Of a DNA stretch of 16,561 bases, positions 1-16,561 are shown piece by piece. The position numbers and the translations under genes are program-made. A model generated the notes under the pieces. It saw only the letters and a program-made list of their open reading frames with translations. It did not search any database and was not told the DNA's origin. How positions within the stretch are numbered: the first letter of the stretch is position 1; the number at the start of each line of letters is the position of its first letter. Source of the stretch: Jimgerdemannia flammicorona (lineage: Eukaryota; Mucoromycota; Endogonomycetes; Endogonales; Endogonaceae); assembly GCA_003990745.1 (NCBI GenBank), contig RBNI01003143.1, positions 1-16,561 of the forward strand, written 5' to 3'.

Positions 1-3000
1 AAAAAAAAAAAAAAAAAAAAATGCAACGCGCTTTATTTCTACACACCTTTAAGATTCAGTGTTTTCAGGCTCGTGCTCTTTTGTAGTGCTTCGACTAGCG
101 CGCTGGTTCCCTTTTCACCAATGTCATTACCTACGGAGGAACACGTACATTGTGTACGTGTGGTTATCAGCCAGAACACAAATGGATGAATGCTAAAGAT
201 GTAATAGGCTTCATTCCTACGTACTTTGTAAATTCAGGGTTTGCATGACTGTATTCGCTTTCAGCACTTCAGCTAGATCGCGGGCTCCCTTATCACCAAT
301 GGCATTATCTATGGAGGAACACGTCAGCCAGAACACAAACAGACGGATTCTAATAATATAATAGGGTTCATTCCTATATACTTTGTAGATCTAGGTCTTG
401 TAGGGTTGTGTTTGTTTTCAGTGCTTTGGCTAGTGCGCAGGCTCCCTTCACACCAATGTTATTGCCTACATAAAATGTATATGCGTGGCTGTCAGCAAAA
501 ACACAACAGACAGATGCTAAGAATGTCATAGGCTTCATTCTACATACTTTGTAGATTCAGGGTTTGCAGGATTGTTTTTGTTTCCAGTGCATAGGCTAGT
601 GCGCAGGCCCCCCTCCCCCTAATGTCATTGCCTACGTAAAATGTGTACGCGTAACTGTCAGCCAGAAATAAACAGATGGTTACTAAGAATGTATTAGTCC
701 TTCATATTACATACTTTGTAGATTCAGGTTTTGGAGGATTGTATTTGTTTTCAGTGCTTCGGCTAGTGCGCAGGCTCCCTGTACACCAATGACATTGCCT
801 ATGTATAATGTGTATGCGGGCGAGTTAGCCAGATCACCAACAGACGGATGCTTAGAATGTAATGTCCTTCATTCCTACATACTTTGAAGATTCATGTTTT
901 GCAAGAATGTGTTCGTTTTCAGCGCTTCGGCTAGTGCGCTGGCTCCCTTATCACCAATGGCATTGCCTACGGAGGAATACGTAAAATTTGTACGCGTACG
1001 CATGACTGTCAGCCAGAACACAAACAGACAGATACTAAAATGTAATGACTATAAAAAAAAAAAAAAAAGATACTAAAATGTAATGGACTTTATTCCTACA
1101 TACCTTGTAGATTCAGTTTTTGCAGTATTTTGTTCGTTTTTAATGCTTCGGCTAGTGCAATGGTTCCCTCATCACCAATGTTCTTGTCTACAGAGGAATA
1201 TGCGATTTGACATGCATATGTGTGAGCTAGATAGATGCATAAATACGTAACACACTTCGTTCCTACGTACTTTCTAGATCCAAGTTTTGCATGTCTGCGT
1301 TCTTAATTAGTGCTTCTGCTAGTGCGCTGCGCATATCGCTAATGCCATTGTCTATGGAGGAACACATCAAATGTACACGCGTGGCTGTCAGCCAGAACAC
1401 CAAATAGACCAATAGAAAAATATAACACCCTTCATACATACTTTTTTTATTCCGGATTTGCAGATTCGCGTTTGTTAACAGTTCTTTTATTAGTGCGCTG
1501 GCTCCCTTCTTGTCAATAGCATTGCCTATGGAGTAATACATAAAATTTGTACCCGAACACAAACAGATGGATGCAATAATGTAACATTCTTCATTCCTAC
1601 ATACCATTCAGATTCAAGGTTTGCAGGCTCGTGTTCATTTGCAGTGCTTCGATTAGTGCGCTGGCTCCCTTCTCACCGATGTCATTATCTACGGCGGAAT
1701 ACATACAATGTGTGTCAGCAGATCATAAACGGAAAGATACTAAAAATGTAATATACCTCATTCATACATACTTTGTAGATTTAGCTCTTGCAGGACTTTG
1801 TTCATTTTCAATGCATCAGCTAGTGCGCAAGCTTCCTTCTCGCCAAGGGCATTGCCTACAGAGAAACATGTCAAATTTTTATGCGTGCTGTCAGTGCTAA
1901 AAATGCAGGGTATATAATTATATACTTTATCCCTACGTACTTTGTAGATTCAGGATTTGCAGGCCCGTGTTTGTTTTCAGCACTTCGGTTAGTGCGCTGG
2001 CTCCCTTCTCGCCAATGCAATTGCCTACAAAGAAATACGCGAAATGCATGTGCACGGTTGTCAGCCAGAACACAACAAAAGGATGCATAAAATGTAATGT
2101 GCTTCATTCCTACATACTTTCAAGATTCAAGTTTTGTAAACTCTTATTCATTTTCAGCACTTCGGCTAGTGCACTGGCTCCCTCCTCACCAATGTTATTG
2201 TCTAGGGAAGAACACGTAGAATATGTACGGGTGGCTGTCAGTCAAAACGCAACCAGACGGATGATAATAATGTAATGGGCTTCATTCCAACATACTTTGT
2301 AGATTCAGGTTTTGGAGGACTGTGCTCGTTTTCAACGCTTCGGCTAATGCGCTGGCTCCGCCATCGCCAATGCCTTTGTCTACGGAGGAATATGCGATTT
2401 GTACATGCGTAGCCGAGGATCAGAATACCAAAAAAAAAAAAAAAACGTAAAGCGCTTCGTTCATACGTACTCCCTAGATCCAGGTATTCCAGATTCGTGT
2501 TCATTATCAGTGCTTCCGCTAGTGCGCTGTGCAGATCGCTAATGCCATTGTCTATGGAGAAATACATCAAAGGTATAGTGGTGGCTGTCAGAATAGATGG
2601 ATATAAATATCATGCCCTTCATACAAACATGTTAAATTACAGGTTTGCCGCCTCGCGTTTGTTAACAGTGCTTCTATTAGCGCGTTGGCTTCGTTCTTGG
2701 CAATGACATTATCTACGGAGGAACACATAAAATTTATACGCGTGGTCTGTTAACACAACAAAAATATGCAAAAAAAAAAAAGCAACACGCTTCATTCCTA
2801 CAAACCTTCCAGATTCAGAGTTTGTAGGCCCGTATTCGCCCGCAGTGCCTCAATTAATGCGCTGGCTCCCTTCTCACCGATGACGTTATCTATGGAGGAA
2901 TATGTAAAATGTGTATGCATGATTGTCAGCCAGTACACAAACAGATGGATGCTAAAAATATAATCAGCTTCGTTCCTACATACTTTTTAGATTTAAGTTT

Positions 3001-6000
3001 TGCAGGATTGTATTCATTTTCAGCGCTTCAGCTAGATCACAGGCTCCCTTCACACCAACGACATTGCCTATATATAATGTGTACACGAGGAGTTAGCCAG
3101 AACACTAACAGACAGATGCTAAAAATCTAATGTACTTCATTCCTACATACTTTGAAGATTCACATTTTGCAGGAATGTGTTCGTTTTCAGCGCTTTGGCT
3201 ATTGCGCTGGATCCCTTATCACCAATGGCGGTGTCTACGGAGGAATATGTAAAATGTGTAGGCGTACGCGTGGCTATCAGCCAGAACACGAGCAGACGGA
3301 TACTAAAAATATAAAGTGCTCCTTTCCTACATACTTTGTAGATTCAGGTTTTGCAGGATCGTGTTCGTTTTTAATGCTTCAGCTAGTGCACTGGCTCCCT
3401 CATCGCCAATGACTTTGTCTATAGAGGAACATGCGATTTGTACATGCGTATGTGTGAGCCAGAAAACCAAACAGAGGGATGCATATACGTAACGCGCTTC
3501 ATTCCTACGTACTCTCGAGATCCAGGTTTTGCAGGCCCGCATTTGTTATCAGTGCTTCTATTAGTGAGCTACGCAGATCACCGATGTCATTGTCTACTGA
3601 GGAACACATGAAATGTATATTGTCAGTCAGAATACCGAATAGATGAATAATAATAAAAATGGAACGCGCTTCATACATACCTTTTAGATTCCGAGTTTGC
3701 AGGCTAGTGTTTGTTAGCAGTTTGTCTATTAGTGTGCTAGCTCCCTTTTCGCCAATGACATTGCCTAAGGAGGAATACATAAAATGTGTACATGTAGATG
3801 TTAGCCAGCACACAAACAAATGGATGAAAGATATAACGCGCTTCATTCCTACATACCTTTCAGATTCAGGGTTTGCAGGCTCGTGTTCGTTTGCAGAGCT
3901 TCGACTAGTGCACTGGATCCCTTCTCACCAATAGCATTACCTATGTAGAACACATACAATGTGTATACATAGCTGTCAGCCAGATACACAACGATACTAA
4001 AAATGTAATGAGCTTCATTCCTACATACTTTGTAGGTTCAGGTTTTGCAGGGTTGTGTTCGTTTTCAATGCTTCGGCTAGTGCGCTGGCTCCATCATCGC
4101 CAATACCCTTGTCTATAGAGAAACATGCGATTTGTACATGCGTATGTGTGAGCCAGAAATCCCAAACAGAGGGATGCATATATACATAACGCGCTTCACT
4201 CCTACATACTCTCGAGATCCAGATTTTGCAGGCCCGCATTTGTTATCAGTGCTTCTATTAGTGAGCTACGCAGATAACTAATCCCATTATCAACTGAGGA
4301 ACATATTAAATGTACACACATGGCTGTTAGTCAGAACACCGAATACATGAATAAAATAAAAAATAAAATGGAACGCGCTTCATACGTACCTTTTAGATTC
4401 CGGATTTGCAGGCTGGCATTTGTTAGCAGTTTTTCTATTAGTGTGCTAGCTCTCTTTTCGCCAATTGCATTGCCTAAGGAGGAATACATAAAATGTGTAC
4501 ATGTCGGTGTCAGCCAGCACACAAACAAATGGATGAAAAAATGTAACGTGCTTCATTCCTACATACCTTTTAGATTCAGGGTTTGCAGGCTCGTGTTCGT
4601 TTGCAGAGCTTCGATTAGTGCACTGGCTCCCTTCTCACCGATGACATTACCTACGGAGGAGCACGTAAAATGTGTACGCGTGGTTGTCAGCCAGAACACA
4701 AACAGACAAATCCTAAAAATGTAATAGGCTTCATTCCTACATACTTTGTAGATTCAGGTTTTGCACGATTGTATTCGTTTTCAGCGCTTCAGCTAGTGCG
4801 CAGGCTCCACTCTCACCAATGGCATTACCTACGGAGGAATACGTAAAATTTGTAAGTATAGCTGTCTGCCAGAATGCAAATAGACGGGTTCTAAGAAGGT
4901 AATAGGCTTCATTCCTACATACTTTGTAGATTCAGGTTTTGCAGGAATGTGTTTGTTTTCAACGTTTCGGCTAGTTCGCTGGCTCCCTTCTCACCAATGA
5001 TATTGCCTATGGAAGAATACATGAAATGTGTACGTGTGGCTGTCAGTCAGAATACAAACAGACAGATGCTAAAAAATTTGTTGGCATAATTCCTACATAC
5101 TTTGTAGATTCAAGTTTTGCAGGCCAATGTTCGTTTTCAGCACTTCGGCTAGTGCGCTGGCTCCTTTCTCGCCAATGTAACTGCCTACAGAGAAACATAC
5201 AAAATATACGCGCGGTTGTCAGCCAGAATACAAACGGGTGGATTTAAAAAATGTAACGCGCTTCATTCCTAAATACTTTGTAGATTCAGGTTTTGCAGGA
5301 TTGTATTCGTTTTCAACGCTTCGGCTAGCTTGTGGGCACTCTCATCACCAATGGCATTATCTACGGAGGAACACGTAAAATGTGTACGCGTGGTTGCCAG
5401 TCAGAACACAAATAGACGGATTCTAAAAATGTAATAGGCTTCATTCCTACATACTTTGTAGATTCAAGTCTTGCAGCATCGTGTTTGTTTTCAATGCGCA
5501 GGCTAGTGCGCAGGCTCCCTTCACACCAATGGCATTGCCTATGAAGGGATACATAAAATGTGTACGTGTGGCTGTCAGTCAGAACACAAACAGACGGCCA
5601 AAAATGTATTGGCTTACGTTGTAGATTCAAGTTTTGCAGGCCCGTGATCTTTTTCAGCACATCGGCTAGTGCGCTGGCTCCCTTATCTCCAATGCGATTG
5701 TCTACAGAAAAATACACAAAATGCATACGCGTAGCTGTCAGCCAGGATACAAACTGGATGAATGCAAAATTGTAACGCGCTTCGTTCCTACATACTTTCA
5801 AGATTCAAGTTTTGCAGACTCGTGTTCATTTCCAGGGCTTCAGCCAGTGCACTGGCTACCTTGTCTTCAATACAATTATCTAAATAAAAACAATGGTTAT
5901 ACACACCTGATGGTTAAGAAAAGATATGGTGATGTAGTTCGATTTTCAAATTTCGAAGATTCTTCTCATTCAGCTGTAGTGTTGACTTTCATTGTACTGC

Positions 6001-8403
6001 TGATGTCGCTCCCCACAACCGTATACAAAATTCAATGTTACAGTTGTTATAACGTACCTGAAAGATTTAATTCTCGAAGTTGAAAGCACTTCAAAATAAT
6101 TTTTTTAATCCTACAGATGGATAAAGGTTGATTGTTAGTACAAGTATATATACTATGTATCATCTACTGACAAAGATGATAAATGGAAGATGATCTTACT
6201 GCACATTCTTCATCTGCTTTAGTCTAGATAAGCAAGATATATTAGTCATTATTACTTCAAGTTTGGCAAATAATAATATAATGTTAAAAGATATCTTACA
6301 CAAGAATTTCAATAGTGGTCGCAGCGGCAATAAGAGCCTCTACATCGTCTGAATAGGCCCCTTCACAAGCTACGAAGCTACAGTTTGTTCACTTGTTAGT
6401 TATTTAAGGTATGCAGAAAATAATATTAAGTCAAACTGATTACCTGATTTTCCGCAGGGGGACACTCGGTAGTTCACGTGTCACCGAATCTCGAAACGAA
6501 CGCAAAGAAGCCTTTGACAAGCCCTCGATCCTGATATTAAAAATAAAACTGTCATGAGTACAAAACCAGCACAGCTATGAAAAACACAAATTTATATCGA
6601 AGATTAGAAAATAACACGAACGTCAGCTCCCACTTCTCCTCGTTAAACATAACAACGCCATCCCCGGAACTGCTTTTGATGGCCGTATGAACTCTACGAT
6701 TGGCTTGTTTCGTCTCCCATTCCGGGGCGTGATTCACGCATACCCATCGCACTGTTATGCTACCATCTGCCCCACGACGAAGCACGCGCTGCAGATTCCC
6801 AAGTCGATCGGTGCTATCTATGCCTTCAAGGTAGGCTATAAACCAAAATGAAAAAAAAAAAAAAAAAAAATCAGTATATAGATACCAGCGTATGTACACT
6901 TGAAACAAGAAAATCGCTTTATCACTGCACCTTGAAGTTCTCGTAGATCAGGTCTTTGCATTAGTTCCGATGATCTTCTAGGTGGCTGCTCAGGCGGCAG
7001 AATATCAGTCGTATATTTCTGGACCTGGTTGTCAGCAACTTCCATGTTTCCAACCGTCTTAAAAAATTGGGCAGTCTGCGTGCAGAACTCAAGTTCGCGT
7101 TCCGTAAAAATCGGTGATTCTGTTGCCATGTATGGCATTGAAGCAACATCATCGATCGCTTCTGTCGCTCTACCCAATCCAGGAACACATTCCATTAGAC
7201 CTCCTCCCAAACGCACAGCCAGCAGTAGACAGGGAATGATCTATTTTGCACGTGAAATGTCAGATGGCACGCAAAGAAAATTCCACCGCTCAAGTTCAAA
7301 TAGACAACTTACCGTTCGTATGTATGGGCCAAATTTAGTCATAAACTATAATGCGCTCAAGAAAACAGAAAAATAAGCATATGTTGAGATTTTTGGAGCG
7401 CATGTCATATCAAATATCAAAATAACATACCTCGCGTGGTCGGATGACGCGGTAACCGTCATGATATGCCAGATGAAACTGTTTCTTTGTGCTACCGTTT
7501 TTTTCGATGGTCTCGTGCTCGCATAGAAAATATAGACGGAACGTTTTTTGGAAGAAGTTGTCAAATGATATATCCAACCAATTACCATCCTCGGGTAAAA
7601 GAAAGAAAAGTCGGGGGATTGTATCCTCATGCATATCAAGCATAAGCTTGGGCAGGTTGCCAACCATGCCGTGAAGTTCGTCGAGGGTGAAGAGGATCTT
7701 TGTCATATCGACCTTCATGTCCTTTATGTCTCGCGCAATCTATATGTGGGTGGAGAAAAAAGGATCACGGAAATTCCATAAACATCGTAACATGACAATC
7801 TGATAAACCAAATATTTTGATCGTTTCTGACCGATCCCAGATCATAAGATGGTGCTGGTATGCAAAAGTATACATATTTATCAGGAAAATGATCGTGGAT
7901 TTCGGTGAATTTGAGAATAAAACCGCATAATCCACCTATGTGGCGGTGTCGAGACAATAATTATCAAAACAAGAAAAATCTCGCACCTTCCGTAGATATC
8001 TGTTGACCGCCTGTCCCTGATCAGATCCAAAAAGTGATGTTTTCAGTTGACAAATACACCGGAGCTTTCATGACCGGTATGGTCATTTACCGGACGACTA
8101 ATGCTTGAAGACCCACCACAATAGTTCATCGGAATAATATAGCTGACGATAGTTACCTTTCAATCGGGCAATCTCGTTCATAATGATATTTACGGGCCCA
8201 CCTCGTAAGTTAAATGGAGATCTCGATAGCGCATTTTTGGTGAGCAGAATGAGAGCGGTTCCGTTTGTTTCCTGATCACGCAAGATCGCCACATGTTCGG
8301 GTTTCAATCCGAAAGCAGGGTGTCGAAAGTGGTCAAAGACTTGGTGTTCATCCCAGGTCTTGACTTGGGCAAGTGAGGGAGTTGGAAGTTCGGGTTCGGA
8401 CAT
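1..8403 (-). CDS. SAM-LRR receptor-like multi-exon gene, 3' end outside window
   Basis: This is the main gene of the window, read on the minus strand from an ATG at 8403-8401 and running off the left edge. My exon model is 8157-8403, 7987-8016, 7431-7739, 7313-7345, 6931-7240, about 6586-6835, 6444-6530, 6300-6377, 6058-6110, then 34 LRR exons from 5796-5879 down to 47-130. That is about 1,410 visible residues: a SAM domain (residues about 10-82), unnamed conserved modules (about 83-395), an LRR lead-in (about 396-467) and 34 LRRs. From 7739 downward the exon phases agree at every junction; the join between the first two exons does not. There is no signal peptide, membrane segment or P-loop, so the product is probably intracellular. 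SAM domains mediate oligomerisation and RI-type LRRs mediate protein binding, so a scaffold or innate-recognition role is inferred, not shown. Linking the SAM exons and the LRR exons into one transcript rests on strand, spacing, phase and the typical module order. Confidence 0.75.
1030..1085. mobile_element. Tiny poly(A) insertion with flanking 18-bp duplication
   Basis: Inside the intron between LRR28 and LRR29 the 18-mer AGATACTAAAATGTAATG occurs at 1030-1047 and again at 1068-1085. The bases between are ACTAT and a 16-A run (1053-1068). This makes the intron 137 nt, against 73-100 nt for the other introns of the LRR array. The form is that of a very short retroposed poly(A) end with a target-site duplication. 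Replication slippage is the alternative. Confidence 0.5.
1104..1688 (-). repeat. Four-exon cassette copy 4 (LRR25-LRR28)
   Basis: Exons 1605-1688, 1442-1525, 1271-1351 (81 nt) and 1104-1187 repeat the cassette order once more. Exon 1442-1525 ends with a lysine run instead of NLQ because of a T7 tract on the plus strand. It is the most distant copy from the 5' end of the gene. Confidence 0.65.
2296..2889 (-). repeat. Four-exon cassette copy 3 (LRR18-LRR21)
   Basis: Exons 2806-2889, 2629-2712, 2471-2551 (81 nt) and 2296-2379 repeat the cassette order. It is more diverged than copies 1 and 2: exon 2629-2712 has lost several consensus residues (it ends RRQTCNLT) and has the unusual donor GTTTGTATG. 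A 16-A run (2430-2445) sits in one intron. Confidence 0.65.
3335..3940 (-). repeat. Four-exon cassette copy 2 (LRR12-LRR15)
   Basis: This has the same order of repeat types as the copy at 4029-4650, with exons 3857-3940, 3681-3764, 3513-3593 (81 nt) and 3335-3418. Long stretches match copy 1 with few differences, including introns, which points to a fairly recent tandem duplication or to gene conversion. Confidence 0.75.
4029..4650 (-). repeat. Four-exon cassette copy 1 (LRR8-LRR11)
   Basis: This is a higher-order unit of four exons and three introns. In transcript order it holds a regular repeat (4567-4650), an ALI/LIEKLL-type repeat (4390-4473), the 81-nt short repeat (4210-4290) and a regular repeat (4029-4112). 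The intron after 4029-4112's acceptor side shares GCGATTTGTACATGCG (plus strand, around 4126) with the other cassettes. It is nearly collinear with the neighbouring copy 694 bp to the left, in exons and introns alike. Confidence 0.75.
6058..6110 (-). CDS. Exon 9: LRR lead-in exon, phase switch
   Basis: The exon is 53 nt, with acceptor CATCTGTAG, a perfect TACTAAC branch site about 24 nt upstream, and donor TTTCAG/GTACG. It reads IKKIILKCFQLRELNLS, ending in the LRR strand motif LRELNLS. It is entered after two codon bases and left after one, so it converts the phase of the upstream exons to the phase 1 used by all following LRR exons. The next intron (5880-6057, 178 nt) is the longest in the LRR part. 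Confidence 0.65.
6300..6377 (-). CDS. Exon 8: irregular LRR-like exon
   Basis: The exon is 78 nt, entered after AAACTGTAG, with a CTAAC branch site 18 nt upstream of the acceptor, and ending before GTAAGATA. It reads FVACEGAYSDDVEALIAAAT then TIEIL. The EALI..A helix is like that of an RI-type repeat. A second TAG acceptor eight bases inside would break the frame and is rejected. The exon is again symmetric (two bases over on both sides). Confidence 0.6.
6444..6530 (-). CDS. Exon 7: short helical exon before the LRRs
   Basis: The exon is 87 nt, between AATATCAG and AAATCAG/GTAATC. In the frame required by the next exons it reads IEGLSKASLRSFRDSV followed by TRELPSVPLRKI, with no stop; the other two frames are closed. 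The pattern resembles the irregular repeat-like segment that joins the preceding module to the solenoid. It is entered and left after two codon bases, so it is symmetric and skippable. Confidence 0.55.
6586..6835 (-). CDS. Exon 6: module with RWVCVNH motif
   Basis: The acceptor TTTATAG at 6836 is preceded by a 20-T polypyrimidine tract (6851-6870). The exon reads AYLEGIDSTDRLGNLQRV, RRGADGSITVRWVCVNHAPEW and later MFNEEKWELTFVLFSNLRYKF. The order LGNL.R, then V.WVC..H, then an amphipathic beta segment recalls a module that precedes LRRs in fungal proteins of this type (from memory). The 3' end at 6586 was chosen because a GTTTTTC donor there leaves two bases, which the next exon needs. Donors at other GTs between 6586 and 6650 remain possible. 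Confidence 0.55.
6931..7240 (-). CDS. Exon 5: helical linker module
   Basis: The exon is 310 nt, entered in phase 0 after AAAATAG (with a TCTGACA branch-like site upstream) and ending CAAG before GTGCAG with one base over. It begins IIPCLLLAVRLGGGLMECV, a hydrophobic helix-like stretch, then an acidic segment (ATEAIDDVASMPYMA), a charged helix around FTERELEFCTQTAQFF, and a hydrophilic tail with PPEQPPRRSSELMQRP before DLRELQ. The hydrophobic stretch is short and probably an internal helix rather than a membrane segment. There is no known catalytic motif. Confidence 0.6.
7313..7345 (-). CDS. Exon 4: 33-nt mini-exon completing the module
   Basis: Eleven codons in phase 0 read FMTKFGPYIRT, bounded by ATTATAG and by the near-ideal donor ACG/GTAAGT. 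The F.xKFGPY core is what I expect right after RPRE in this family, which is the main reason to accept so short an exon. Exons 3 and 5 are also phase 0 at these junctions, so skipping it would remove 11 residues without a frameshift. Confidence 0.6.
7431..7739 (-). CDS. Exon 3: conserved module with IPRLFFLLPED motif
   Basis: The exon is 309 nt (103 codons, phase 0 on both sides), with acceptor ACATATAG and a near-consensus donor GAG/GTATGT. The product starts with a helical segment (IARDIKDMKVDMTKILFTL), followed by NLPKLMLDM, TIPRLFFLLPEDGNWLD, FRLYFLCEHETIE and HLAYHDGYRVIRPRE. From memory, the series IPRLF..LP, FRLYFLCE, HLA.H.GY and RP.E recurs in SAM- and LRR-containing proteins of Mucoromycota and in some animal proteins. 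I know of no established function for it and cannot run a profile search. The module continues across the next two exons. Confidence 0.65.
7987..8016 (-). CDS. Exon 2: short connector exon (10 codons)
   Basis: A 30-nt exon is bounded by GATCAG and by GTGCGAG. In phase 0 it reads GQAVNRYLRK and continues in frame into the next exon (IARDIKDMKV), giving one basic amphipathic helix. The frame is open further upstream, so the exon could start earlier. An alternative acceptor lies six bases further in (GGACAG), also in frame. The phase-1 end of the SAM exon does not join directly to this phase-0 start. Either a further small exon lies between 8017 and 8156, or the SAM donor differs from the one I chose. 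Confidence 0.4.
8157..8403 (-). CDS. Exon 1: start codon and SAM domain
   Basis: The exon opens with MSEPELPTPS and the ATG lies in a good fungal context (CACC before ATG). An in-frame ATG 19 codons upstream (8460) is possible but gives an unlikely leader. Residues about 10-82 fit a sterile alpha motif: W17 opens helix 1, then come KPEHVAILRDQETNGTALI, LLTKNAL, and a GGPVNIIMNEIARLK helix typical of SAM helix 5. The SAM fold is a five-helix bundle that polymerises or pairs with other SAM domains. The exon ends AAAG before GTAACT, leaving one base of a codon (phase 1). That phase does not match the next exon I can place. Reading through instead reaches a stop after about 20 codons. The domain call is good; the 3' junction is uncertain. 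Confidence 0.7.
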
Positions 8404-8760
8404 GGTGACGGCGGTTGAGGTGTATACGGATGATTTTTCGTAATTATATACCCCAGTCAAAGGAGACAGGCATCATATTTGTAATGGTACCCGCGGGCTT
8501 GGTGTTACAAACTCGGTGTACAAATGATCACGGACAGTAAACTCGGGCATTCCTTCCCAGGCAACCTCGGTATATATCCGGACATTCTTCCCAGGCAACC
8601 TCGGTATATTTCCGAACATTCTTTACCAGGCAACCTCCAGGGCATTCTTTCCCAGGCCGGCCGCCTCCCCTCTTAAACGCGAATAAGCCATTCCCTAACT
8701 AACCACAAGCCATTACTTAACCGTTCGAGAGACACACAAACCGGCAAGGTTGCACCCATT
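8404..8760 (-). promoter_or_regulatory. Probable promoter of the SAM-LRR gene
   Basis: This is the non-coding interval directly upstream of the SAM-LRR start codon. It holds a tandem repeat (8548-8658, listed separately) and TATA-like stretches (GGTATATATCC at about 8569-8579, about 170 bp from the ATG). I saw no other conserved element. The exact transcription start cannot be read from the sequence. Confidence 0.35.
8548..8658. repeat. 34-35 bp tandem repeat in the promoter region
   Basis: Two nearly full copies (8548-8582 and 8583-8616) are followed by shorter ones (8617-8642 and 8643-8658). The shared core on the plus strand is CATTCTTCCCAGGCAACCTC followed by GGTATAT and TCCG. The copies differ by few substitutions. 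Both full copies carry a TATA-like segment. Confidence 0.75.

Positions 8761-9711: not shown

Positions 9712-9766
<55 letters not shown>
9712..9766. repeat. 55-base poly(A) tract
   Basis: Fifty-five consecutive A residues form the longest homopolymer in the window. Shorter A runs of 12-21 lie at 1-21, 1053-1068, 2430-2445, 2770-2781, 6851-6870 and 12402-12421. Assembly error in its length is likely. Confidence 0.95.
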
Positions 9767-13231: not shown

Positions 13232-13829
13232 GTGGTCATCTGGGATGCACGACTTTGTTTTACTCGATTCTTTATTCATGATTTCGGAACCTCTTCTGCC
13301 TCGTTGCGTGAATCCGTCCATCCATCTCATCTACACAGAGGCTCTCTGAGTGGATACCCATATCGACTGCTCCAGCATTGCCCCACTTTGGTGACCGCCA
13401 ATTGGGGAAGGAGTAGGCGGTTTTTCTGCAAGGTGGTAGTGGTTCCTTCCCGTGGGCAAGGCTCTCAAACCGTGTTTGCAATTTTTCTACCAGGGTGGAC
13501 TGTATTATTTGACGCGGGAGACGTTGATTTAAGATTATTATTACCAAATGACACCTGTTTTTAATGAACCATTATTGGAGAAATTTACTTTATACTAAGA
13601 TAAATTGGATATATTTATTATTATTCTATTTCAAAATAAACCGTTCTGGTTCTGACCAACGCGCCTTAACACTCAAAATTGCCAGGACCGAAAGCATTGA
13701 CGAACACAAAAAAGACGGCGAAGAACCCACGGTTTACCAATGTCGACAACAACAACTTCAAGCTCTGGAAGTTTCTCTTGATAAGCCGAACGACAATTTA
13801 ACAATCTTCGTATCTACACAACATCAAGT
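13232..13829. other. Unassigned region with overlapping open frames
   Basis: A 110-codon plus frame (13232-13564) and a 91-codon minus frame (13272-13547) are mirror images of one another. Another plus frame (13564-13872) includes ARTESIDEHKKDGEEPTVY and QLQALEVSLDKPNDNLTIF, which is protein-like but unrecognised. None has clear start or splice support. Confidence 0.2.
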
Positions 13830-15533
13830 GTGCACTCAGTCATCTTTCTCCAGTACCACTCAGGTTACATGACCTTTGGAAAGCACTTACAACATCGTTT
13901 TTGGAGAAGGAAGACTAACAACATGGTGACTGACAGGCAATCTGAGGTGTGTACTGGGCAGGGTGACCTAAGCGCTTTCGACTGGCAGCAGGTGGGGAGA
14001 GGCCCGGGCCTGGGGGGGGGCATGAGGGGGCTGCTGGCAGGTGGACATGGAAGGGGTGAAGGTAGTGGTGGAGGCCAAGGGTCTGGGAGGGTGAGCTTTG
14101 TGGAGATGGTGAAGGGGAGACAGCAGACATTAGGGCAGGAGAGCTGGCTGAGGAAGGGCAAAGAGACTGAGAAGACAACAGTGCATGGAGGTATAGTCCT
14201 TGGAAGTGGGGGCAGTGGAGCTGGAGGAGTAGTGGCTGGGGGGAGTGTGACTGCTGATGGTGATGGAACTGCCAATCTGGAAAAAAATCCAGATATGACA
14301 GCTGATGGAGTAGCTGAGCAGTTGAGGCTTGGAAGACAAGGGGACTTGGCAGATGGTGTGATGGGTCTGGCAGTGGTCTCATTACTCAAAAAATTGATCT
14401 CGGCATTCATGGTTACACTGTGCTTCCAGGGCTTAGTGGTGACAGTGAAAATGATGCTAGGGCTTATCGCTAAGTAGGTGGTAGGAGCTATATTGGTGAA
14501 GTTTTTAAAGGGACTGGAGGGAGTAGAGGTGGGATTTGAGGAGGCTGGGCCACTGGAGGAGGCACTGAAGGTTAGATTGGTAGTTGGGGAGGTGTGTGTT
14601 CTAATGGCATGTTGCTTGAAGTAGGATCCAAGGGTGGTCCAACTGCTGGTAAAAGGAGTGCCCACAGTGACAGCAATAGAGACAAGAAGGAGAGTTGAGG
14701 AAGTTATGGCAGAATATAGAAAGGTGGTAGATATCAGATTCAGGATCTGGAAAGGGATCTCACTCAGGACTGGTGATGTGGATGTGAGGATTTGGCTAGC
14801 CAGAAAAGAGGCTATTGGGAAGGTGAGGGACTGGCCTTTGGTAATGGTCTGGGGAGCAATCTTGTGCAAGGTGATGAAGGTAAAGGGAAGTGAGGAGGAG
14901 GAAGAGGATTTATTAGAAGTGCTCAAAGAGTTGAGTGGTACTGTAGAGCAATAAGTGAAGGCTTGGAAGGCTTTTGTGGAGTTGATGCACTTGGAGGTAG
15001 TGGATAGAAAGCAGATTTGAGTAGATAAGGAGCAGTGGGAAAGGGCTCAGGGGCATAAGAGACAGAAGGATCTGCTGGCTAAGATGGAGAGTAGACCACT
15101 GGAGGATGTGAGTAAGACAAAGAGTATGGAGAGGGCCAAGGTGAGTGTCTGGGCTGATGAGGGGAGTGGGAATGCCAGGAAGGAGACAGGGGAGGATAAG
15201 GAGACAACTGGTAAGGATCCATATACTGATGGTATATTTGAGATTTGAGAGGAGGTCTGGGAGGACTCCCCTACTCCTACTCCTCTTATCAGACAAGGCC
15301 CAGCTTCCCGAAACAGGGTGGTGGAGGATATGCCAATGCAGGGGGCCCAGCAGGTGAAATTTGGAGTTCCAGAGGTGGCAAATGGGGGACAGGTGGTGGC
15401 AGCTAGAGAGGAGGAACTAGTGGATGTCCTGGAGGTATGGGATGAGGCTGCGAGTGCTGGGACTGACACCACAATGCTGGATAGAGGGAGGCTGGCGACT
15501 TCTGGAGGGAAGGCAGTAGGGAACCTACTTTGA
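13830..15533 (+). pseudogene. Decayed long ORF, possibly retroelement ORF1/gag-like
   Basis: One plus-strand frame stays readable for about 1.7 kb (568 codons), with internal stops at 14475-14477 (TAG), 14622-14624 (TAG), 14952-14954 (TAA), 15018-15020 (TGA) and 15246-15248 (TGA), and a final TGA at 15531-15533. The text is Gly-rich at first, has GRVSFVEMVKGRQQ, then VRDWPLVMVWGAILCKVMKV, an acidic run, QWERAQGHKRQKDLLAKM, AKVSVWADEGSG and EEVWEDSPTPTPLIRQG. This is typical of a hydrophilic nucleic-acid-binding or gag-like polyprotein that has lost selection. Several stops could derive from CAG, CAA, CGA or TGG by C-to-T or G-to-A change. No reverse transcriptase follows. The very long minus frames here (13865-14926, 15047-15733) are Ser/Thr/Pro-rich shadows of this purine-rich strand. 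Confidence 0.4.
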
Positions 15534-15840
15534 ATATGCCAGATAATGAACAACTTGGCAGTAGAAGAGTTGGGGGAGGTGGACTTGAGAGTGATGGGTG
15601 ATGAACATTGGGCATAGATACTGTAGGGAGATGGAGTGATGAGAGTATTGAAGGTGGAAATTCTGGTAGTGTATCTGGAGGAGGAAGGGTATGAGGTGGA
15701 TGAGGAGTGGAAGGTAGAGCTGGCAGTTGTCACAGGGGAGAGGGCTGAATACTGCTAGAACAAGTGCCATAGATTATAGCTCTGGCAAGAGGCCTGCCTA
15801 GAGTGTAAGAGGGTTGCTTTTTAGGGTAACCATTACATAG
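15534..15840. other. Unassigned, purine-rich continuation
   Basis: The plus strand keeps the G/A-rich composition of the decayed ORF up to about 15750 but with more stops. A 77-codon minus frame (15730-15963) with NLEINKRRGRTPYEIDLDHK is open but unrecognised. Confidence 0.3.
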
Positions 15841-15879
15841 TTCTGGAAGGGTTTTCTGGAAGTTCTGGATATTCTGGAA
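15841..15879 (+). repeat. TTCTGGAA motif cluster
   Basis: TTCTGGAA occurs at 15841-15848, 15854-15861 and 15872-15879, with TTCTGGAT at 15863-15870. The last three are a 9-bp-period tandem repeat. Each TTCNNGAA matches a two-module heat-shock element, but the 9-bp phasing does not match a continuous 5-bp-module array. Confidence 0.5.
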
Positions 15880-16270
15880 GACCGTTTTCTTATGGTCAAG
15901 ATCAATTTCATATGGAGTACGTCCTCTACGCTTATTGATTTCAAGATTGGGTTGACGTCTCAACCAAAGTCCTTTTTTGGACTAGTTCTAGATGTTCAGG
16001 ATTTTCTGTATTTCAGGAAGTTCAAGAAACTAAGACCAGCTTAGTTGAATCGGCGTATCGCTGCAGACAATACCCAATTAGGAAATTTTGTGACGGGGTT
16101 AGGAGTAGGACCTAACGGAGAGCAGATTTACTTAAGAGTGATTTGTGGGTTATTAAATAGGTTTATTCGCTATTCATGATATTGTTATACTAGGAATATT
16201 TGTGTGAAGGGATATTGTGGGGAAGTGCTCAGGAGTTGTGTTCGGATTGTTCAAGTCTGAGATTCTGAGG
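15880..16270. other. No gene seen
   Basis: There is one small hairpin, AGTCC-T6-GGACT (15968-15983). Otherwise this is AT-rich non-coding sequence with a G-rich run (GGGGGAGGGGG) just after it at about 16274-16284. Confidence 0.4.
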
Positions 16271-16320
16271 TCTGGGGGAGGGGGTATTTATACTAGTGAG
16301 GGGCTATCTGGACTATGCTA

Positions 16321-16561
16321 AATATGGATGTAGCACTAAGTGCTTTGCTGAGTCGGAATGCAGTCACATAGTACAAGTGTGATCTGACATGTCAAGAGAT
16401 TGTCTGACTGCTGAGTCAGTTCACAGTCACGTCATACAAGGCTAATCTAACTATACTATGACTGCTAATCTATTTATAGGTTCAGGCGCTATCTGGGTAG
16501 TCTTCGATGACATCACCATCGATGATATCATCTCTGATGAAGTAGTCGTCTAGGAAGAGTG
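16321..16561. promoter_or_regulatory. Motif-dense, possibly LTR-like or promoter DNA
   Basis: The segment is rich in TGAC/GTCA words: palindrome TGACATGTCA (16385-16394), hairpin CTGACT-GCTG-AGTCAG (16404-16419) that includes the AP-1/Gcn4-like TGAGTCA (16412-16418), CACGTCAT with a CRE-like half site just after it, a TATTTATAG box, and palindrome GATGATATCATC (16521-16532). Such density suits a promoter or the U3 of an LTR. The window ends before a second copy could confirm an LTR. Confidence 0.3.

Follow-up and report, generated by a model that had tools for sequence, protein, structure and literature searches.

One leucine-rich repeat per phase-1 exon in a family of SAM-headed genes of the fungus Jimgerdemannia flammicorona

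What kind of gene devotes a separate, uniformly phased exon to each of its leucine-rich repeats (LRRs), and does this design serve recognition, alternative splicing, or neither? The question is raised by bases 1–16561 of contig C3143 of Jimgerdemannia flammicorona, a stretch of 16,561 nt that is called the window here and comes from an assembly of 134.8 Mb in 7754 contigs. A total of 34 consecutive LRR exons were found on its minus strand, running from 5879 to 47, with 31 exons of 84 nt and three of 81 nt, and all 34 are open, are bordered by AG and GT, and start and end in phase 1. The introns between them range from 73 to 100 nt in 32 of 33 cases, the remaining one being 137 nt long. The original prediction had described one LRR per exon of 84 or 81 nt, 34 in a row, open and in the same phase, with introns mostly of 73–100 nt, in a probable fungus; borders, frame and phase bear this out in 34/34 exons, the introns agree apart from the one of 137 nt, and the host is a fungus. 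A mitochondrial Hsp70 exon of the assembly is 97% identical to J. flammicorona (Endogonales), ahead of two hits at 90% and 87%, with no further named hit above 84% among the 120 matches listed. The prediction had left the strand unnamed, and it mentioned neither that the array is the 3′ portion of a longer gene, with its first coding exon at 8403–8157, nor that the array is cut by the contig start. The locus is an exon-modular LRR array, that is, a tandem of one-LRR exons that share length class and phase. A weight matrix built from 22 of these exons scored 30 of the 84-nt exons at 59 to 160 bits, versus −83 for the top place on the plus strand; the four exons outside this fixed-length listing are those of 81 nt (3593–3513, 2551–2471 and 1351–1271) and one of 84 nt with a CAG acceptor (4293–4210). 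The array runs off the contig start, so that 34 LRR exons are a lower bound, and no sign of decay was seen in these 34 exons. A candidate dead exon in the 178-nt intron before LRR exon 1 scored 25, barely above the shuffles (maximum 23), and no claim is made for it. Poly-A runs occupy positions 1–21 (about 21 bases, at the contig start beside the array) and 9712–9766 (about 55 bases).

Ten exons upstream of the array (8403 to 6058) were joined to it in consistent phase by comparison with paralogues, giving an open gene model, 1420 codons spread over 44 exons, which is cut by the contig start within the array. On the minus strand, coding exon 1 (8157–8403, phase 0 to 1) encodes a predicted SAM domain, recognised through a family profile, and coding exon 2 (7832–7854, phase 1 to 0) is a 23-nt microexon, whose weak donor, GTCAGA, makes it the least certain part of the model; a similar stretch is seen in paralogues. 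Coding exon 3 (7431–7739) carries a domain common to Mortierellaceae proteins (PRLF...FRLYFLCEH...), coding exon 6 (6586–6835) the RWVC...H region, coding exon 8 (6300–6377) the entry to the solenoid, and coding exon 10 (6058–6110) a half LRR (LRELNLS) that ends in phase 1, with coding exons 4 (7313–7345), 5 (6931–7240), 7 (6444–6530) and 9 (6200–6223) placed between them by the gene model. The same plan was found in a complete paralogue, C7626, which has 11 upstream exons, 20 LRR exons and a terminal stop exon, and encodes 1120 residues. C7626 also has a 162-nt coiled-coil exon that is common to the aligned paralogues and is missing from the window copy; an apparent frame break at this place vanished once the microexon was recognised. 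That the window copy is a decayed repeat or a pseudogene might be suggested by the missing exon, the weak microexon donor and the cut at the contig end, but the 1420 codons are free of stops, every one of the 34 LRR exons is open, the missing exon is itself of phase 1-1 so that its absence keeps the frame, and the ratio of non-synonymous to synonymous change in the LRR scaffold is 0.30 in this copy, which together make decay very improbable.

The identity of the N-terminal domain was drawn from the family. In exon 1 of the window alone, no SAM_1 match was found in Pfam (E up to 10), whereas SAM_1 was listed at this limit for 13 of 16 family exon-1 proteins, the best at E 4.3e-6. A profile of the 16 members, compared with the PDB, gave SAM proteins at the top (best E 3.8e-5), including polyhomeotic-like 3, SARM1, L3MBTL3 and ETV6, in which we take the matched parts to be SAM domains. 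By this family profile, exon 1 of the window is assigned as a SAM domain. LRR_6 repeats are matched at E 1.4e-23 already within residues 1–695 of the window protein, and represent the C-terminal LRR domain that is one mark of an NLR. In these 695 residues and in C7626, no match to NACHT or NB-ARC was found in Pfam at E up to 1, a search in which a diverged NTPase would need structure to be seen, and the ROC-COR GTPase tandem gave no match there either. Likewise, there was no match at E up to 1 for a STAND NTPase core or for any domain in the central region, and a Walker A motif is absent from both the window and the C7626 models. By the domains tested, the gene is neither an NLR nor a ROCO gene, though it may work like one.

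The window gene belongs to a large family. Searching the assembly with the upstream exons returned 147 exon-level matches, the window's own included, and from these, listed by hand with weaker and shorter matches left out, the SAM exon has 44 matches (E below 1e-16, most of the exon covered) on 37 contigs, and the central exon has 35 matches covering most of it on 31 contigs. Each of two tandem genes on C283 shows two SAM-exon matches (13080 and 13647; 21958 and 22549), which suggests that this exon, too, was duplicated. Sixteen arrays, the window and 15 others, were surveyed in a scan that admitted only lengths divisible by three, and when borders were applied strictly the count was 250 LRR exons, with 236 of 84 nt, nine of 81 nt, four of 78 nt and one of 69 nt; the gaps between neighbouring LRR exons range from 70 to 115 nt in 226 of 234 cases, the commonest being 94 nt (44 cases). 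Long gaps had been considered as decayed exons, an idea that was dropped when four of five long gaps from the first 13 arrays, searched at 54–99 nt, turned out to hold a shorter in-frame exon (63, 63, 69 and 78 nt). Decay was kept for one lost acceptor in C9, whose long gap yielded no acceptor at lengths of 54–99 nt; the gap, which follows LRR exon 8, contains a stretch mostly aligned to the LRR exon consensus, with no AG acceptor, and is presumably skipped. The number of exons varies widely among the arrays of this one assembly. Among those with a terminal exon, C7554 has 10 LRR exons, C5611 has 11, C4239 has 13, C2787 has 14, C7626 has 20 and C873 has 46 (the terminal exon being weak in C2787 and C873), and the C283 genes have 17 (C283a) and 18 (C283b), each with a 63-nt exon in addition. 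The three C847 genes show six to seven LRR exons, with long gaps remaining in all three, so the span across the surveyed arrays is from 6–7 to 46; the other arrays are incomplete and end at the border of the sampled segment or of the contig.

The arrays appear to have changed by the copying of exon-intron units. In the window, exons of the types B, C and K follow one another as a cassette at four places, LRR exons 9–11, 13–15, 19–21 and 26–28, and the cassette is found four times in C873 as well, with one C exon of the window and one B exon of C873 assigned by eye. C9 has the B-C-K cassette once, its C exon lacking an acceptor, and C-K once alone. In C7626, residues 27–28 of exons 3–5 (EH, YQ and GR) reappear in exons 7–9, and its introns are about 88% identical on average. 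The exons of the tandem neighbours C283a and C283b pair one to one at 81–95% identity, with one exon more in C283b. Over 13 genes, the best match of an exon lies in its own gene for 86 of 219 exons, versus 17 on average and at most 30 after label shuffles (n = 200). These patterns fit the duplication and loss of exon-intron units and of whole blocks by unequal recombination.

The window exons behind this description, all on the minus strand, are as follows in order of translation. LRR exon 1 (5796–5879; 84 nt, phase 1-1) is followed by exons 2 (5618–5701), 3 (5455–5538), 4 (5277–5360), 5 (5101–5184), 6 (4923–5006) and 7 (4745–4828), which were found by the matrix and the gene model. Exons 8 (4567–4650) and 12 (3857–3940) are 93% identical to each other and stand before the first two cassettes, of which the first comprises exons 9 (4390–4473, type B), 10 (4210–4293, type C by eye, 84 nt through its CAG acceptor) and 11 (4029–4112, type K), and the second exons 13 (3681–3764, B), 14 (3513–3593, C, 81 nt) and 15 (3335–3418, K). 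Exons 16 (3151–3234), 17 (2984–3067) and 18 (2806–2889), again from the matrix and the gene model, lead to the third cassette, exons 19 (2629–2712, B), 20 (2471–2551, C, 81 nt) and 21 (2296–2379, K), and exons 22 (2118–2201), 23 (1941–2024), 24 (1772–1855) and 25 (1605–1688), on the same evidence, to the fourth, exons 26 (1442–1525, B), 27 (1271–1351, C, 81 nt) and 28 (1104–1187, K). The matrix and the gene model also gave exons 29 (883–966), 30 (715–798), 31 (548–631), 32 (382–465) and 33 (225–308), and after exon 34 (47–130) the following intron runs off the contig start, where the gene is cut.

Differences between the repeats are concentrated at three places. When residue 1 is the first whole codon of an exon and residue 28 the codon split by the intron, the most variable of the 28 residues are 28 (3.54 bits), 27 (3.41 bits) and 2 (3.16 bits), and they remain the top three whichever gene is omitted (13/13). 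We take residues 27 and 28 to be the last two variable places of LxxLxLxxN, and residue 2 to be the place after N. The scaffold is conserved, with non-synonymous to synonymous ratios of 0.06–0.43 over the 13 genes, calculated with pairs of synonymous distance ≥0.45 left out, so that the window keeps 302 of 465 pairs. At residues 27, 28 and 2, the non-synonymous distance is larger than that of the introns in 13/13 genes and larger than the synonymous distance of all codons in 9/13 genes (5th percentile above 1 in up to 100 resamplings); in C7626, the ratios are 8.2 and 4.8, and the three residues stand at 0.545 versus 0.118 in introns. Targeted hypermutation of the exon-border codons might also be read from C7626, in which the four bases that end an exon and the two that begin it have an entropy of 1.15–1.57 bits next to near-invariant first ten intron bases, but one-to-one paralogues show no excess and selection is the simpler explanation, making hypermutation extremely improbable.

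Taken together, we consider it probable, if only by a modest degree, that these genes form a family of SAM-LRR receptors with a cytosolic recognition solenoid, whose arrays change by duplication of exon units and whose transcripts are spliced constitutively. The LRR solenoid would be the recognition surface, probably in the cytosol, and the SAM domain would oligomerise the protein for signalling, as many SAM domains oligomerise. Units of 84 bp plus commonly 94 bp, and blocks of such units, would be duplicated and lost by unequal recombination, so that recognition would diversify over generations through gain and loss of units, with splicing taken as constitutive throughout. Because the phase-1 intron falls inside the codon that varies most, the joining of any two exons also sets the residue at that place.

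Several observations weigh against this receptor reading. The best exon match lies outside the own gene for 133 of the 219 exons, so that exchange within genes is real but far from complete. Residues 27, 28 and 2 were picked as the most variable in the same data in which their change was then measured, and the distances are Nei-Gojobori counts on paralogous repeats, not a codon model. For the textbook concave class (residues 22, 23, 25, 27 and 28), set against the synonymous sites of the same residues, only two of 13 genes have a ratio above 1, C7626 (1.02) and C2787 (2.15), the others having 0.38–0.98 and the window 0.54. In the window gene itself, residues 27, 28 and 2 give 0.93 (0.75–1.21), which is not above synonymous change, as in three other genes. 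Between C283a and C283b compared one to one, these residues differ by 0.141, less than the synonymous sites (pS 0.169) and the introns (0.156), and between C847b and C847c by 0.154, versus 0.297 at synonymous sites and 0.206 in introns. Apart from SAM, no signalling domain was found. Further, there is no hydrophobic leader in the window protein or in C7626, yet residues 205–223 of the window protein (exon 5, within 7240–6931) have a mean hydropathy of 1.81, with 1.59 in C7626; a buried helix could account for this stretch, as could a membrane segment, so that the cytosol can be proposed only as the probable location, and an unreserved statement of it was dropped on this account.

A rival to this receptor reading is simple growth of exon tandems, in which the protein is a scaffold without a role in recognition and the repeat number drifts as the exon-intron unit is copied. 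In such growth, identical phase follows automatically from the copying of one unit, and both the near-neutral change at the variable residues in the one-to-one comparison and the small number of genes with a concave class above 1 would be expected. It fits poorly with residues 27, 28 and 2 standing far above the introns in every one of the 13 genes, and with the conserved scaffold, and we regard drift as a real possibility though the less likely one. The original prediction had proposed measuring dN/dS at the exposed LRR positions, and, measured on paralogous repeats, non-synonymous change is in excess at the three residues in nine genes, but not in the window gene, in the one-to-one pairs or, in 11 of 13 genes, for the concave class. 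A claim of strong diversifying selection was weakened by the concave-class ratios and the one-to-one pairs. The low one-to-one change suggests that the diversity may be old and kept. The likeliest account would be that differences from repeat to repeat at residues 27, 28 and 2 have been favoured and kept, and the rest held or homogenised, without unusually fast mutation at present. For concerted evolution combined with selection at few codons, the own-gene matches and the variability of the three residues speak in favour, and the concave class and the one-to-one pairs against.

Since all LRR introns are of phase 1, splicing from one LRR exon to any of those that follow it would keep the reading frame. 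None of the 528 possible skip junctions in the window gives a stop at the split codon, and 32 of 2374 do so over the 13 genes, the window included, which upholds the earlier claim that exons can be lost or skipped without a frameshift. The first mechanism offered by the original prediction was alternative splicing of these symmetric exons, giving many receptor isoforms per cell. Short introns favour intron definition, under which exon skipping is uncommon. Symmetry of phase, moreover, is expected from clonal duplication as well, and if the arrays grew by copying one unit, identical phase is a consequence and not a proof of selection for skipping. The 34/34 symmetric exons and the rarity of stops at skip junctions would suit such splicing, and splice variants are reported, in the available parts of the sources, for brown-algal ROCO LRR exons (PMC11378527) and for NLRP3 (PMC6642158); on balance, we find a splicing-based repertoire distinctly unlikely.

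The vertebrate NOD and NLRC proteins are NACHT receptors, and the window family differs from them in having no NACHT or NB-ARC match, a SAM N-terminus, a fungal host, up to 46 LRR exons and about forty genes. As far as the accessible text of Hoss et al. (2019, PMC6642158) goes, most human NOD and NLRC genes carry one 28-aa LRR per exon, LRR exons in NLR genes preserve the frame and NLRP3 undergoes alternative splicing, and in the first two respects they resemble the window family. The brown-algal ROCO genes, candidate immune receptors, are described in the accessible part of Teng et al. (2024, PMC11378527) as having 72-bp phase-2 LRR exons that are shuffled and give splice variants, with the concave face under positive selection; they share with the window family one LRR per exon, shuffled arrays and variable concave residues, and differ in exon length and phase, 23-aa LRRs, the ROC-COR GTPase and reported alternative splicing, while positive selection, reported for them, is mixed in the window family. 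In Tetrahymena, according to the part of the source that was available (PMC6564038), thousands of LRR genes have 90-bp phase-2 exons. Like the window family, these genes keep exon length and phase constant, vary in the number of exons, have an amino acid at the junction and are proposed to undergo unequal crossing-over; they differ from it in host (a ciliate), in the values of exon length and phase, and in gene number.

Within the fungi, the nearest evolutionary logic is that of the Podospora HNWD genes (het-d, het-e and het-r), built with WD repeats (PMC1805685, PMC2873952). As presented in the accessible portions of these sources, they resemble the window family in variable repeat number, repeat exchange and diversity on few codons, but their WD repeats lie in STAND proteins and selection on them has been shown, whereas the window family has mixed selection and partial exchange within genes. 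A survey and a review (PMC4986451, PMC5658179), in their available parts, report that LRR motifs are missing from fungal NLR-like receptors. Judged by titles and the openings of abstracts, searches of the open-licence literature on fungal LRR exon arrays, and on LRR genes of Jimgerdemannia and Mucoromycota, turned up no family of this kind. On this basis, the one-exon-per-LRR device is known from vertebrates, brown algae and Tetrahymena, and its fungal SAM-headed version would be new. An exon-modular SAM-LRR family in a fungus would be a further and probably independent case of a known device, and would provide a set of sequenceable genes as candidates for a role in telling self from non-self, or in recognising partners, among early-diverging fungi. 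A bolder extension, which we hold to be rather doubtful, is that the roughly forty SAM-LRR genes of this early-diverging symbiotic fungus are a repertoire of its own, with arrays reshuffled within the species and each new junction a new contact residue; if so, reshuffling might occur perhaps even between nuclei of one mycelium, and the family would parallel the HNWD allorecognition genes of Podospora, with LRRs in place of WD repeats, among the fungi, whose NLRs reportedly lack LRRs.

Protein relatives were sought among 7999 candidates that share most words with the query and are of similar length, a scope in which fragmentary models, such as those of Jimgerdemannia, would be missed. In the first search, the best three of eight were two plant TORNADO 1-type proteins and an Ectocarpus LRR protein (24–28% identity over 29–38%), which are taken to be matches of the LRRs only. 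The central region of the window protein, over part of the query, is 26–34% identical to the Mortierellaceae proteins P0007, P0008, P0009 and P0010 and to P0004, with the motifs PRLF and FRL(Y/F)F in common. The best distant homologue of the N-terminal part is P0009, a partial protein of Mortierella sp. 14UC that carries 28-aa LRR_6 repeats, about seven LRRs. Its LRRs are probably uninterrupted, because its 815 codons lie on a contig of 2924 nt, which has hardly room for introns at every LRR and in the N-terminal part. The Mortierellaceae relatives are thus like the window gene in the central region and, in P0009, in the 28-aa repeats, and differ in the apparently uninterrupted LRRs of P0009 and in SAM, for which no match was found in the four proteins scanned (P0004, P0007, P0009 and P0010). 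In J. flammicorona itself, C5367, C2995 and C1490 contain intronless open frames of 28-aa LRRs, up to 2403 codons long, with a different N-terminus, so that the genome holds both interrupted and uninterrupted LRR arrays. These three had been considered as intron-free relatives, but the N-terminal parts inspected are of another type, and they bear only loosely on the structure of the LRR exons. The original prediction had named, as evidence that would tell against it, homologues with uninterrupted LRRs of which this copy would be a decayed repeat; uninterrupted arrays do exist, in the same genome under another architecture and seemingly in P0009, but the decay is not seen in the window array.

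Two further repeats were observed in the window. A 34-bp minisatellite of 2.7 copies lies at 8544–8637, just 5′ of the first coding exon. A dispersed repeat was located at 14000–14900, with at least 40 other matches in the assembly (40 of 4458 candidates scored), of which 39 are 85–87% identical to the 901-nt piece over almost its entire length; the repeat, likely to extend from 13800 to 16400, is probably a transposable element.

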